Part shown: in pieces, positions 55,954 through 62,077 of the stretch
Numbering within the stretch: the first letter of the stretch is position 1
How the letters are laid out: every line of letters starts with the position of its first letter
NCBI RefSeq assembly: GCF_920984675.1
Contig: NZ_CAKLBV010000010.1
Coordinates: forward strand, 1 to 64,000
Source: Methylobacterium sp. Leaf118
Lineage (GTDB): Bacteria > Pseudomonadota > Alphaproteobacteria > Rhizobiales > Beijerinckiaceae
Direction: 5' to 3'
Length of the DNA stretch: 64,000 bases
Translations under genes and position numbers: made by a program
The notes under the pieces: model-generated
Databases searched by the model: none
Told to the model about the DNA's origin: nothing
The model's input: only the letters and a program-made list of their open reading frames with translations

Positions 55954-57300
55954 TCACGCAGGTGCAAAAATCGTTTCGGACGGCACCGGCTGGTCCACCC
56001 GCGGCGGCGCCATCTCGATCGCGGTGGCGAGGCCGGCGAACAGCGAAGCCGCGTAGGGCGTCTCGCGCCACGTCTCGGCGGCCGCGTCGCGGGGCGCGCC
56101 CCGCTGCAGCGCGGTCGCCGCGCAGGCCTGACCCCGAAAGGCGAGGCGGCCGTCGGGATCACGGCGCAGCGCCATCAGGTTGGCCGGCAGGGCGAGGCGT
56201 TCGGGCTTGCCCAGCACGAGCGCGACGTCGCCGGGGCCGCCGCGGCGGCCCGAGAGGATCGCGGTCTCGTCGAAGGCGACGGCGTCGATCACCGTGTCGA
56301 CGCGGACCGATTGCGGATGGCCCGGCACCCGGCTGCGCCCGGGAAAGCGCGCGGGCGCCCGGTGGAGGAAGGTGGCCGTGCGCAGATCCGGCGGCAGGTC
56401 GCGCCCGGCGAGGTTCTTTTCCAGGAAGGCCGGGGCGACGAGGTGGGTCGGGATCGGCCGGGCCAGAGCGGCGGCGAAGGTCGCGCCGTCGAAGAGCGGC
56501 ATCACCTCCAGCGTGGCGCCCGCGACGAGGGCCGTGGCGAGGCCCGTGGCGAGGCCGCGCAGATCGTGGGGGCCGACCAGGCTCAGGATGCGCTCGCCCG
56601 GCTCGGCGCGCACGGCCACGAGATGGGCGGCGGCGGCGGCGACCAGCGATTCGCCGTTGCGGAAGACCGGTCGGTCGGGATCGCCGCCCGCGAAGGTGAC
56701 GAGGCCGGCGGGGGAGGGGGCCGCGCCGTGGCCGGGCTCGGTCGGGCCGTCGAGCACGAAGCGGTCGAGATTGATCACCCCGTCGGGCACGTCCGGGCCG
56801 AAGGCAGCGAGGTAGCGCAGGCCGAAATAGCGCGCGGCGACGGAGCAGAGCCGCTCCGCGGGCGCCGCGGAGCCGAGGCGGGCCTGGGTGAGGACCGCGC
56901 TCAGCGTCGCCCCCTGTGCGGCGGCGAGGAGGCGTTCCTCGTCCCAGGAGACCGGCAGCGGCACGGCGACGTGGCCGGCGGCCTCGACCGCGAGGATCGC
57001 CAGCACGCTCTCGGCGGAGCCGGGCAGGCAGATGCCGACGCGGCTGCCCGGCGCGAGGCGCCAGCCGCGCAGGCCGCGGGCGAGGCGCCCGACGATCTCG
57101 GCCGCCGCCGCGTAGGTCCAGGTGATGGCGGGCCGCCCGCTCCAGACCGGCTTGTCGGCGGGGTCGATCACGGCGATCCGGTCGGGATGGCACCGGGCGG
57201 TGGCCGCGAGCAGGCTCCCGAGCCCGACCCGCCGCAGGGGCACGTCCGTCGGCGTCTCCCGCGACGCCTGTTCCTGCGTGATCGCCTGATGCGCCGACAC
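55954..57300 (-). CDS. AMP-dependent ligase-like pseudoenzyme
   Basis: The protein has 448 residues with the N-terminal fold of acyl-CoA synthetases. RRVGLGSLLAATARCHPDRI, TYAAAAEIVGRLARGLRGWR and AVPLPVSWDEERLLAAAQGA follow the family in order. The ATP-binding signature that should read [ST]SGTTGxPKG is replaced by LVTFAGGDPDRPVFRN. The A8 segment (GWxRTGD) and the C-terminal lysine domain are absent. It is therefore probably not an adenylating enzyme. The start is GTG at 57300 with GGGAG upstream; a TTG at 57351 is less likely. It is divergent from the ethylene-receptor-like kinase gene. Confidence 0.75.
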   Translation of the reverse strand: MSAHQAITQEQASRETPTDVPLRRVGLGSLLAATARCHPDRIAVIDPADKPVWSGRPAITWTYAAAAEIVGRLARGLRGWRLAPGSRVGICLPGSAESVLAILAVEAAGHVAVPLPVSWDEERLLAAAQGATLSAVLTQARLGSAAPAERLCSVAARYFGLRYLAAFGPDVPDGVINLDRFVLDGPTEPGHGAAPSPAGLVTFAGGDPDRPVFRNGESLVAAAAAHLVAVRAEPGERILSLVGPHDLRGLATGLATALVAGATLEVMPLFDGATFAAALARPIPTHLVAPAFLEKNLAGRDLPPDLRTATFLHRAPARFPGRSRVPGHPQSVRVDTVIDAVAFDETAILSGRRGGPGDVALVLGKPERLALPANLMALRRDPDGRLAFRGQACAATALQRGAPRDAAAETWRETPYAASLFAGLATAIEMAPPRVDQPVPSETIFAPA

Positions 57301-57500
57301 GCGCGTGACTCCCGTATTGCCCGTCGATGTGAGGCCGGCATGGTTAAGCAAGGTTTAACGCGGTCCGCGCCCATCCATCGCGGCGCGCGGCGGGCCCGGT
57401 GTCACCGAACGGCCGGGATTGCCAGGAAGAGACCGGCGCGGCACCAATGGGCGGCAGGGATCGCGGCCCGGGATGGGCGCCGGTCCGGGGGAAGAGGGCG

Positions 57501-58757
57501 ATGCTCGACAGTCTGCGGCGCCTCTGGGAGGTCGAGAATCTCTCGCCCCACGGCATCTGTCTCCTCTGGCGGCCGGAGCTGATCTGGACGCACATCATCT
57601 CCGACACCCTGATCGCCCTGGCCTATTTCTCGATTCCCGTGGCCCTGGCGACCTTCGTCTCCCGGCGGCGCGACGTGGCGTTCGGCTGGGTGTTCTGGTC
57701 CTTCGCGGTGTTCATCACCGCCTGCGGCGCCACCCATCTGATGGCGATCTGGACGCTCTACGTGCCCGATTACGGGCTGGAGGCGATGGTCAAGATCGTC
57801 ACCGCCGCGGCCTCCATCGGCACCGCCTTCGCCCTCTGGTACCTGCTGCCGCGGGCGCTGAGCCTGCCCTCGCCGACCCAGCTGCGCCGGGCGAACGAGG
57901 CCCTGCGCGCCCGCATCGAGGAGCGCGACCAGGCGCTCGCCGCCCTGAAGGAGGCCCAGGCCGAGCGCGACCGCACGGAGGCGCTGCTGCGCCAGGCGCA
58001 GAAGATGGAGGCGGTGGGCCAGCTCACGGGGGGCGTGGCCCACGATTTCAACAACCTCCTCAACGTGGTGCTGATCAATCTCGACCGGGTGGAGCGGGGC
58101 CTGTCCGCCGACAGCCGCCTGCTCGCCCCCCTGCGCGACGCGATGCAGGGGGCCGAGCGGGCGGCCTCGGTGACCCACAAGCTGCTGGCCTTCGCCCGCA
58201 AGCACCCGCTCTCGCCGGTGAGCACGGACGTGAACGCCCGCCTCGCCTCCTTCGCCGGATTGCTGCGCGGCTCCATCGGCGCCAAGATCCGGCTGCAGAC
58301 CGATCTCGCGCCGGATCTGCCCCCGCTCGTCATCGATCCCAACCAGTTCGAGAGCGCCGTCCTCAACCTCGCGGTCAATGCCCGCGATGCGATGCCGGAG
58401 GGCGGCACGCTCACCCTGCGCACGTGCCCGCTGCCGGGAGGCGAGGGGATCTGCGTCGAGGTGTCGGATACCGGCACCGGCATGCCCGCCGAGGTCGAGG
58501 CCCGGGCCTTCGAGCCGTTCTTCACCACCAAGCCCCTGGGCCAGGGCACGGGGCTCGGCCTCTCCCAGGTCTTCGGCTTCGCCCAGCAATCGGGCGGCAG
58601 CGCCGCCATCGTGCCCGGGCCCGGACCCGGCACCACCGTGCGCCTGTCCTTCCCGGTCCGGCCCCCGGTTCCGGCGCGGGCCGAGGCGACGGCGCGCGCG
58701 GGCGCGTCGAACCCGGGCTTGACGGCCGGCCCGGGTTTCGCGATGGCCGCGGGCTGA
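57501..58757 (+). CDS. Histidine kinase with ethylene-binding domain (ETR1-like)
   Basis: This 418-residue sensor kinase has three N-terminal membrane helices (about 30-53, 61-84, 96-117). They match the ethylene-binding domain of plant ETR1: D35, Y42, I45, P46, I72, C75 and H79 equal ETR1 D25, Y32, I35, P36, I62, C65 and H69, all displaced by exactly ten. A lysine in MVKIVTA corresponds to ETR1 K91. A coiled-coil linker (130-170) leads to the kinase, with H181 in GGVAHDFNNLL and the N-box in NLAVNARDAMPEGG. G1/G2 motifs (SDTGTGMP, GQGTGLGLS) are intact. The C-terminal 30 residues are low complexity. The response regulator gene begins 16 bp downstream. Confidence 0.92.
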   Translation: MLDSLRRLWEVENLSPHGICLLWRPELIWTHIISDTLIALAYFSIPVALATFVSRRRDVAFGWVFWSFAVFITACGATHLMAIWTLYVPDYGLEAMVKIVTAAASIGTAFALWYLLPRALSLPSPTQLRRANEALRARIEERDQALAALKEAQAERDRTEALLRQAQKMEAVGQLTGGVAHDFNNLLNVVLINLDRVERGLSADSRLLAPLRDAMQGAERAASVTHKLLAFARKHPLSPVSTDVNARLASFAGLLRGSIGAKIRLQTDLAPDLPPLVIDPNQFESAVLNLAVNARDAMPEGGTLTLRTCPLPGGEGICVEVSDTGTGMPAEVEARAFEPFFTTKPLGQGTGLGLSQVFGFAQQSGGSAAIVPGPGPGTTVRLSFPVRPPVPARAEATARAGASNPGLTAGPGFAMAAG

Positions 58758-58772
58758 CCGGGAGGAGTGGGG

Positions 58773-59135
58773 ATGGCCGACAGGCGGAGGGTGCTCGTCG
58801 TCGAGGACGAGGAGATGCTGCTCAACGCCGTGGCGATGGAGTTCGAGGATGCCGGCTTCGAGGTGATCTGCGCCGGCACCGCGGAGGCGGCCTACGAGCT
58901 GCTCCGCGACAGGCCCGGGATCGACCTGCTGTTCACCGACATCCGCCTGCCCGGCCGGCTCGACGGCTGGGATCTCGCCGAACGCGCCCGTGCCCTGCAG
59001 CCGGACCTGCCGGTGATCTACGTGACCGGCTACAGCGCCGAGGAGCCGCGGCAGGTCGCCGAGAGCGTGCTGGTGATGAAGCCCTACCGCATGACCGCGA
59101 TCCTCACCGCGGCCCGCGGCCTCGGCGTCGCCTGA
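58773..59135 (+). CDS. CheY-like single-domain response regulator
   Basis: This 120-residue receiver has all key residues: E11 and D12 in LVVEDEEMLL, phospho-acceptor D56 in FTDIRLPGRLDGWDLA, T85 in YVTGYS, and K103 in VMKPYR. There is no output domain, so it would signal by protein binding. It follows the ethylene-binding-domain kinase by 16 bp with GGAGGA upstream of ATG at 58773. It is very likely that kinase's cognate regulator. Confidence 0.93.
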   Translation: MADRRRVLVVEDEEMLLNAVAMEFEDAGFEVICAGTAEAAYELLRDRPGIDLLFTDIRLPGRLDGWDLAERARALQPDLPVIYVTGYSAEEPRQVAESVLVMKPYRMTAILTAARGLGVA

Positions 59136-59232
59136 GCCCCCGGGCGAGCGCTTCTTCGCAGGTGCGAAACGGCACGGGCGCCCGCCGGGCCAGGACCAAT
59201 ATCGGGAGCATCGAAGTCACGGCCCCCGCAAT

Positions 59233-59260
59233 CCTTACGGAGACCGCGCACAGCGTAAGG
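59233..59260 (+). promoter_or_regulatory. Inverted repeat hiding a ribosome-binding site
   Basis: CCTTACG (59233-59239) pairs with CGTAAGG (59254-59260). The right arm includes the AAGG that serves as Shine-Dalgarno for the gene at 59270. The stem could block ribosome access, or be a protein operator. Confidence 0.45.
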
Positions 59261-59269
59261 ACACGCCCC

Positions 59270-59524
59270 ATGTTGACCCGTCTTGCCGCCGCCGCCCTGG
59301 CCCTGAGCCTCGCCGCCCCGGTCACCTCCGCCCTCGCGCAGGGCGCCCCCCACGCCGCCCCCTCGGCCGGGTCGTCGGTCTACCTGCTCCTCGACGACGA
59401 CGTCGACGTCACCGGCGCGATCGATTCCCGCGCGCCGGACTGGTCGGCCAAGGCCGGCAACGCCGCCCGTCCCGAACTGTCCTCCCCGAATCTCGGCGAT
59501 ACCTCGGGCGGCCCGGCCTATTAA
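59270..59524 (+). CDS. Small exported protein of unknown function (84 aa)
   Basis: The ATG at 59270 begins a classic signal peptide (LTRLAAAALALSLAAPVTSA, cleavage expected after ALA). The mature part is about 60 residues, with an acidic run LLLDDDVDVTGAIDS that could bind a cation, and a Gly/Ser/Pro-rich end. No family was recognised. It is 134 bp after the response regulator. Confidence 0.68.
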   Translation: MLTRLAAAALALSLAAPVTSALAQGAPHAAPSAGSSVYLLLDDDVDVTGAIDSRAPDWSAKAGNAARPELSSPNLGDTSGGPAY

Positions 59525-59806: not shown

Positions 59807-62077
59807 ATGCCAATCACGATCTCCATAACGCCGTGGCAGAGCTACCGGCCCAGAGTTGCGGCGTGGGACTTGGTCAATCAGAACGGCGTTCTGATCTCCA
59901 CGCTGATTGCCGACAGGCCGAGCGTCGCGCTCGGTCCGATGTCGTCCTTCCTGAAGGATGAGACGAGCAGCACGGTGGGGCTGTTCGACCCCGGCACCAA
60001 GGTCTTTTCCGCCTTGGGAATGCTGGGGTCGCCGGCCAACCTGATCACCGGCCTCAGCGGCGGATATCTGTTCGACCTGACCGGGTATTGCGGCACGGCC
60101 GTGCTGTATGGCGGAAGCTTCGGCGACCGTCTCATCGGCGGCTCGGGCAACGACACGCTCGACGGCGGTCGCGGCGCCGACGCCATGCTGGGCGGGGCCG
60201 GCAACGACAGCTACACCGTCGACGACGCCGGAGATCAGGTGATCGAGGCGGCCGGCGGTGGCCGGGACACGGTCGAGGCCCTCGTGACCTACACCCTGGC
60301 CGCCGGCCAGGAGATCGAGGTCCTGCGGCTGGCCGCCGCCACGGGCGCCCGTTCCCTCGACCTGACCGGCAACGCCTTCGCCAACGCGCTCACCGGCAAT
60401 GACGGCGACAACGTCCTCGACGGGAAGGGCGGCGCCGATACCCTGACGGGCGGACGCGGCAACGACACCTACTTCGTCGACCGGCCCGACGACCGCGTCG
60501 TCGAGGCGGCGGGCGGCGGCATCGATACGGTCCTGACCGCGGGGCATTATGCTCTGGCGTTCGGGCAGGAGATCGAGTGGCTCGCCACGACCGACGCGGC
60601 GGGCACGGCCGCGATCAACCTGACCGGCAACGCCTTCGCCCAGACCCTCAAGGGGAATCGCGGCGCGAACGTCCTCGACGGCGGGGCCGGGGCCGACACC
60701 CTGATCGGTGACGCCGGCAACGACACCTACCGCGTCGACACGGCCGGCGACCGGATCGTCGAAGCGGTGGGCGGTGGCCGGGATGCCGTCGTCGCCTCGG
60801 TGGACTACGTCCTCGCCGCCGGGCAGGAGATCGAGGAATTGCGGATCGCCTGGGCCGCCGGTGATCGGGCGATCAACCTGACCGGCAACGACTTCGCGCA
60901 GACCCTCAAGGGCAATGGCGCCGCCAACCGCCTCGACGGCGGCGGAGGGGCCGATACCCTCGACGGTGGCGCCGGCACCGACCTTCTGATCGGCGGCGCC
61001 GGCAACGACACCTACCTCGTCGACAATGCCGGCGACCGGATCGTCGAGGCCGTGGGCGGCGGAAGGGATGCGGTCGCGACCACCGTGAACTACACCCTCG
61101 CCGCCGGCCAGGAGATCGAGGAACTGCGCATCGCCTGGGCTGCCGGCGACGGGGCGATCCACCTGACCGGCAACGAATTCGCCCAGACCCTCAGGGGCAA
61201 TGGCGGCGCCAACTGGCTCGACGGCGGGGCCGGGGCCGACACCCTGATCGGCGGCGCCGGCAACGACCGGTACTTCGTCGATCATGTCGGCGACCGGATC
61301 ATCGAGGCGGGCGGACAGGGTCTCGATGTCGTCATCGCCAGCGTCAGCTACACGCTGGGGAGCGGGCAGGAGATCGAATATCTGGGCCTGGCCTCGGGCG
61401 ACGCGCCCCTCGACATCACCGGAAACGCCGTCAGCAACCGCATGGTCGGCAATGATGGCGCGAACCGCATCGATGGCGGTGCCGGGATCGATACGATGTT
61501 CGGCGGCAAGGGCGACGACACCTACTTCGTCGACGCTTTCGACGATTACGTCGCCGAGGCCGCCGGCGAAGGATGTGACACGATCTACACCACGTCCGAC
61601 TATTGTTACTTCGACGGGCAGGAGATCGAGTTTCTGATCGGCAATGCGGGCGCGACCGGCCTGCACCTGATGGGCAACGAGCTCGCCCAGACCATCATCG
61701 GGAATAGCGGCGACGATTTTCTCCACGGCGACGGGGGCGCCGACACGCTGATCGGCGGCAAGGGGCAGGACACCTTCGTCTTCCTGGAACTCCACGACGG
61801 TGCGCCGGGAGCGGATCGCTGCGTCATCGCGGATTTCGAGCAGGGGGTGGACCGCATCCTGCTCACGCCGATCCAGGCCGTCACGGGGTCCGCGACCAAC
61901 CAGCCCTTCGACTGGATCGGCTCGGAGCGCTTCAGCGGGAAGGCGGGCGAGCTGCATCAGGTCACGCTCGGCGGCACGACGCTGATCGAGGGCGATGTCA
62001 ACGGCGACCGCATCGCCGACATCCAGATCGAACTGAAGGGCCTCTACCAGCTCACCGCGGGCGATTTTCAACTCTGA
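59807..62077 (+). CDS. RTX (hemolysin-type calcium-binding) repeat protein
   Basis: The protein has 756 residues. After a short N-terminal region (1-95, no signal peptide), seven repeats of about 90 residues follow. Each starts like LTGNAFAQTLKGN and carries GGAGADTLIGGAGNDTYxVD, the nonapeptide RTX calcium motif. A linker with AGQEIEELRIAWAAG comes next. The C-terminal 100 residues (TFVFLELHDGAPGADRCVIA and DFEQGVDRILL) match the secretion end of serralysin-type proteins. It should be exported by a type I system whose genes are not in this window. There is no protease, lipase or other enzymatic domain, so it may be a surface or adhesive protein. Confidence 0.9.
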   Translation: MPITISITPWQSYRPRVAAWDLVNQNGVLISTLIADRPSVALGPMSSFLKDETSSTVGLFDPGTKVFSALGMLGSPANLITGLSGGYLFDLTGYCGTAVLYGGSFGDRLIGGSGNDTLDGGRGADAMLGGAGNDSYTVDDAGDQVIEAAGGGRDTVEALVTYTLAAGQEIEVLRLAAATGARSLDLTGNAFANALTGNDGDNVLDGKGGADTLTGGRGNDTYFVDRPDDRVVEAAGGGIDTVLTAGHYALAFGQEIEWLATTDAAGTAAINLTGNAFAQTLKGNRGANVLDGGAGADTLIGDAGNDTYRVDTAGDRIVEAVGGGRDAVVASVDYVLAAGQEIEELRIAWAAGDRAINLTGNDFAQTLKGNGAANRLDGGGGADTLDGGAGTDLLIGGAGNDTYLVDNAGDRIVEAVGGGRDAVATTVNYTLAAGQEIEELRIAWAAGDGAIHLTGNEFAQTLRGNGGANWLDGGAGADTLIGGAGNDRYFVDHVGDRIIEAGGQGLDVVIASVSYTLGSGQEIEYLGLASGDAPLDITGNAVSNRMVGNDGANRIDGGAGIDTMFGGKGDDTYFVDAFDDYVAEAAGEGCDTIYTTSDYCYFDGQEIEFLIGNAGATGLHLMGNELAQTIIGNSGDDFLHGDGGADTLIGGKGQDTFVFLELHDGAPGADRCVIADFEQGVDRILLTPIQAVTGSATNQPFDWIGSERFSGKAGELHQVTLGGTTLIEGDVNGDRIADIQIELKGLYQLTAGDFQL

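Follow-up and report, generated by a model that had tools for sequence, protein, structure and literature searches.

A histidine kinase with an ETR1-type ethylene-binding domain and its own receiver-only response regulator in Methylobacterium sp. Leaf118, a probable ethylene-sensing pair

The stretch of DNA analysed here (the window, 64,000 nucleotides of contig NZ_CAKLBV010000010.1 of Methylobacterium sp. Leaf118) carries a histidine kinase gene followed by a response regulator gene, and both open reading frames lie where the original prediction had put them. The features discussed below are as follows.

57501..58757, + strand: histidine kinase with an ETR1-type ethylene-binding domain, 418 aa (open reading frame; Pfam ETR1_N, HATPase_c and sub-threshold HisKA)
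57576..57866, + strand: ethylene-binding domain, residues 26-122, three predicted helices (ETR1_N match, AlphaFold2 model, hydrophobic peaks)
57603..57605, + strand: D35 codon, ETR1 D25 (read from the sequence)
57723..57725, + strand: C75 codon, ETR1 C65, a copper ligand in ETR1 (sequence; role as described in PMC11819568)
57735..57737, + strand: H79 codon, ETR1 H69, a copper ligand in ETR1 (sequence; role as described in PMC11819568)
57792..57794, + strand: K98 codon, equivalent of ETR1 K91 (sequence and alignment)
57987..58670, + strand: CckA-like kinase core spanning residues 163-390; H181 lies in an HDFNN box (alignment A1 and PDB relatives)
58773..59135, + strand: receiver-only response regulator, 120 aa, with D56, T85 and K103 (Pfam Response_reg, 57.4 bits)
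58938..58940, + strand: D56 codon, predicted phospho-acceptor (sequence and genus comparison)

The kinase matches Pfam ETR1_N at 128.6 bits (E 1.1e-37), well over the curated cut-off of 27, which bears out its assignment to the ethylene receptor family. This is the only place in the window's genome where ETR1_N is found, and a search of 14 control genomes gave no match. HATPase_c matches at 67.4 bits and HisKA at 19.2 bits, the latter below the Pfam cut-off of 26.9. All four kinase boxes (H, N, G1 and G2) are present, H181 to N185 are invariant in alignment A1, and the best solved-structure relative of the core is 5idj, with the CckA fragment 5idm beside it. No PAS or GAF domain was found by Pfam between the binding domain and the kinase core, and so compact a kinase may suit structural work.

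D35, Y42, I45, P46, I72, C75, H79 and K98 can all be read directly in the kinase. The original prediction held that the seven residues known to bind copper and ethylene in ETR1 occur here at identical spacing, and alignment confirmed this both against AzoEtr1 of Azospirillum brasilense, derived from its DNA, and against an ETR1 N-terminus entered by hand with its numbering checked. It had also proposed an equivalent of ETR1 K91. A helix-3 lysine is indeed present (K98), but it stands 19 residues past the histidine in the kinase and in AzoEtr1 as against 22 in ETR1, and the exact ETR1 spacing is thus limited to the seven. Identity over the binding domain is 65 of 125 aligned residues with AzoEtr1 and 41 of 109 with ETR1 (hand-entered sequence).

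Three hydrophobic peaks (1.88, 1.78 and 1.58) mark the N-terminus, which is predicted to form three membrane helices. The AlphaFold2 model, computed without copper or a dimer partner, places these helices at residues 25-55, 62-85 and 91-120, the first holding D35 to P46, the second I72 to H79 and the third K98. Mean pLDDT for the kinase is 78.2 and pTM 0.48, and the membrane part is modelled with lower, modest confidence, block means being 50-88 across residues 31 to 122. No sequence relative of the binding domain was found in the PDB up to an E-value of 10. A 2026 review states that a high-resolution structure of the ETR1 membrane domain does not exist (PMC13012798), while PMC10452086 treats that structure as elucidated.

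Fifteen bases separate the kinase stop from the regulator start. The regulator was placed correctly by the original prediction, and its figure of 16 bp is the difference between the coordinates. Neither a promoter-like nor a terminator-like site was found within 57300-59320. Pfam gave no output domain in the regulator, which must therefore work through protein contact or hand its phosphate on. Pairing of the kinase with this CheY-like protein, proposed from the single locus, is upheld across the genus: a homologous regulator lies directly downstream in 41 of the 42 strong copies (those with an ETR1_N score of at least 111 bits, the window's included), which is 41 of 41 testable copies, as the contig of the remaining one (L189) stops 235 bases past the kinase stop. 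E11, D12, D56, T85 and K103 are kept in all 41 regulators.

Outside the genus, the receiver is fused to the kinase at 15 of 36 loci, encoded downstream at 9 and found in neither position at 12, as judged with a receiver profile built from Methylobacterium regulators that other receiver types may escape. Among the 20 of these loci with an HDFNN box, the receiver is fused in 14 and downstream in 6, leaving none without one. Consistent with this, the window kinase matches positions 147-403 and the regulator positions 416-527 of the 540-residue hybrid-kinase model NF010076, both scoring under its whole-protein cut-off as expected for pieces. The simplest reading is that these proteins represent one sensor-kinase-receiver module, which would be a single gene in some lineages and two in the window. 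The ethylene-binding domain sits on further kinase types too, including that of AzoEtr1.

Judging from the sequence, we believe it very probable that the pair is a two-gene, copper-dependent ethylene-sensing two-component system, the most likely explanation of the locus. In such a system C75 and H79 would anchor copper(I) within the three membrane helices of the kinase, where ethylene would bind, and D35 and K98 would tune binding and output. Ethylene binding would alter autophosphorylation at H181 in the CckA-like core, and the phosphate would pass from H181 to D56 of the regulator encoded directly downstream. By analogy with the receptors that have been tested, ethylene would lower kinase activity. 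The window's genome has two copper-ATPase genes over cut-off, making a copper supply plausible, though such pumps are near universal (at least one in 13 of the 14 control genomes as well).

A different assignment of the regulator is that the kinase does sense ethylene but signals mainly to another receiver or phosphotransferase, with the adjacent regulator acting as a phosphate sink. The kinase core has its nearest matches among CckA models and structures, the regulator lacks an output domain, and 43 further places in the window's genome match the query, mostly kinase cores of the same CckA-like kind; all of this would fit such a circuit. However, a receiver is adjacent or fused in every testable HDFNN-type relative examined, and we consider a sink role rather unlikely. 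It overlaps with the ethylene-sensing pair favoured above, and our confidences in the two need not sum to one.

Across 111 genomes of the genus, ETR1_N occurs in 45 genomes at 48 places, 42 of them strong and 6 scoring at most 91 bits. Every one of the 42 strong copies (41 of 41 besides the window) retains the seven residues and the lysine, and the complete set is found in none of the 6 weak ones. The original prediction had said that close relatives lacking Cys75 or His79 would speak against it; no strong copy lacks either. One genome counted in the 42, G078, is 85% complete and 5% contaminated, and its receptor, which groups with a different clade than its mfd fragment, may be a contaminant. 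The six weak copies (L213, L214, L215, L216, L217 and L218) are short of ligand residues, reading for example DCMGICHR, NYIAICHR or AFLALCQK at the eight positions, and G048, G050 and G051 each carry one weak copy beside an intact one. Farther afield, ETR1_N was found in 51 of 248 genomes in a family sample and 64 of 397 in an order sample, each of which includes part of the genus, and the complete set is present in 160 of 173 aligned stretches, some places being counted twice. Ligand loss among distant relatives includes Cys to Thr at L246 and His to Arg at the Bradyrhizobium locus L042. Since homologues without the ligand residues exist, ETR1_N by itself is no proof of ethylene sensing.

These comparisons bear on whether the domain might hold copper at the same site and report copper, redox state or another small ligand instead of ethylene. 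Its copper ligands C75 and H79 are identical to those of ETR1, the Cys and His persist in three of the six weaker copies in the genus although other ligand residues are lost there, and PMC11819568 allows that receptors of bacteria may do more than sense ethylene and describes SynEtr1 as sensing both ethylene and light. The strong copies, however, retain not just the Cys and His but all seven ethylene-binding residues in every case, and a non-ethylene ligand therefore seems to us improbable.

In four of four near-relative pairs, dN/dS is lower in the binding domain (0.069, 0.133, 0.109 and 0.257) than in the kinase core (0.196, 0.281, 0.240 and 0.344), values that come from a simple Nei-Gojobori count on GC-rich genes and read as a ranking. 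Within the strong genus copies the H box is present in 42, the N box in 41 and G1 and G2 in 39, with all four boxes in 39. L180, L184 and L189 are the exceptions: their kinase frames are disturbed before or after the N box, either genuinely or through assembly, and the first two belong to sister genomes. We regard it as extremely improbable that the locus is a functionless remnant in decay, for despite these three disturbed frames and the lack of a strong copy in 69 of the 111 genomes, the window copy is intact, dN/dS is low, the four boxes persist in 39 of 42 copies and the receptor is present in every genome of the window's own clade.

That clade was placed on an mfd tree of 109 of the 111 genomes (G008 and G079 have no usable mfd and were left out). 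It comprises 18 Methylorubrum-like genomes, among them the window's and G037, which together form one genus group. The binding-domain row of G037 is identical to that of Methylorubrum podarium DSM 15083, a species assigned in PMC8561711 to clade B, Methylorubrum. The assignment to Methylobacterium made from sequence agrees with this position, and a plant association of the strain would follow from its kin. The receptor is present in 18 of 18 of these genomes and ACC deaminase over cut-off in 0 of 18, the window's genome having a sub-cut-off match only. As the absence of acdS from clade B is already reported in PMC8561711, the new part is the combination: a receptor in every genome of the window's clade and ACC deaminase over cut-off in none. 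For the receptor side of this pattern we found no match in the open-licence literature; earlier surveys of bacterial receptors may already name Methylobacterium. With a receptor in all 18 genomes, ethylene sensing by pink leaf-dwelling methylotrophs would be directly testable; going by the clade, M. extorquens would be expected to have the receptor too.

Over all 111 genomes, those with and without acdS over cut-off number 13/29 where a strong receptor is present and 58/11 where it is absent (Fisher p 3.4e-8), so that ACC deaminase occurs without a strong sensor in 58 genomes. With the window's clade removed the raw table is 11/13 versus 56/11 (p 0.01, kinship ignored), and in one 23-genome clade both receptor and acdS are present in 11 genomes. 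The receptor needs 6 changes on the mfd tree, and the association with acdS is therefore indistinguishable from shared ancestry. Six independent pairs, drawn in 200 random pairings, gave on average 0.5 pairs differing in the same direction, 1.8 in the opposite one and 3.7 with no difference (median p 1). An anti-correlation of receptor and acdS as a functional law is thus not established, the pattern being clade-level and non-significant on the tree. We offer as a tentative and rather unlikely idea that the receptor serves a "listen" strategy, in which the Methylorubrum-like clade, with the sensor and without ACC deaminase in every genome, would use it to adjust metabolism or the colonisation of leaves to ethylene from the host; the ethylene-binding domain would have been joined to a hybrid kinase of the CckA-like type, and the receiver of that kinase would since have split off as a separate gene.

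The kinase-regulator pair lies downstream of mfd with identical neighbours in 18 genomes including the window, and elsewhere in the others. That the pair was transferred horizontally or lost was also considered and set aside; the stretch after mfd was compared in 91 genomes by flank matches, and no precise empty site was defined. Few forks of the binding-domain tree are supported (16 of 78 starred). On a conjugative Novosphingobium plasmid (L346, 2995-4462), an ethylene-binding-domain kinase and an overlapping response regulator gene lie near a type II Cas9 gene, an observation indicating that such modules can travel on plasmids.

Three further reading frames flank the pair. At 55954-57351, divergent from the receptor gene, is a 465-aa protein whose matches, all weak, are to the N-terminal portion of AMP-forming ligases; in several clades most genomes have a homologue of this protein after mfd, with the receptor present or not. 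The short frame at 59270-59524, which starts MLTRLAAAALALSLAAPVTSALAQ, seems to encode a small secreted protein carrying a signal peptide. Just downstream of the pair, at 59807-62077, is a 756-aa protein with RTX-type calcium-binding-like repeats, for which all model matches are sub-cut-off.

PMC11819568 describes two bacterial ethylene receptors backed by experiments, SynEtr1 and AzoEtr1. The window pair belongs to a known class, as AzoEtr1 with its own downstream regulator is already published. According to PMC11819568, residues 1-130 of AzoEtr1 bind ethylene in yeast, cells with AzoEtr1 disrupted show little or no saturable ethylene binding, and disruption leads to constitutive ethylene responses; its authors expect ethylene to inhibit the kinase, which would pass phosphate to the regulator next to it. 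Like the window pair, AzoEtr1 and AzoRR-etr1 (A. brasilense Sp7) combine a homologous binding domain with a receiver-only regulator gene directly downstream. D35, Y42, I45, P46, I72, C75, H79 and K98 are numbered alike in the two kinases, and D35, C75, H79 and K98 carry these same numbers in PMC11819568. By analogy, binding, phosphotransfer and the sign of the response in the window pair may resemble those of AzoEtr1. In contrast to the window kinase (418 aa, no PAS match, HDFNN box), AzoEtr1 has 525 aa, a PAS domain and an HEMSQ box, and the AzoRR-etr1 gene overlaps the kinase gene whereas the window regulator begins 15 bases downstream.

The hybrid kinase of Bradyrhizobium sp. LTSP885 (L041) shares the binding domain, the HDFNN type and a homologous receiver, but there the receiver is fused to the kinase, and in the window it is a separate gene. 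SynEtr1 of Synechocystis resembles the window kinase, by its description in PMC11819568, in having an ETR1-type domain, a histidine kinase and response-regulator signalling; it differs in also sensing light and in that its regulator, slr1213, activates small-RNA transcription (PMC11819568). Arabidopsis ETR1, in the hand-entered sequence, has the seven ligand residues equally spaced and the lysine three residues further on. Unlike the window kinase, it has GAF and fused receiver domains, as set out in PMC13012798, and it signals mainly via CTR1 instead of by phosphotransfer, as PMC11819568 describes.
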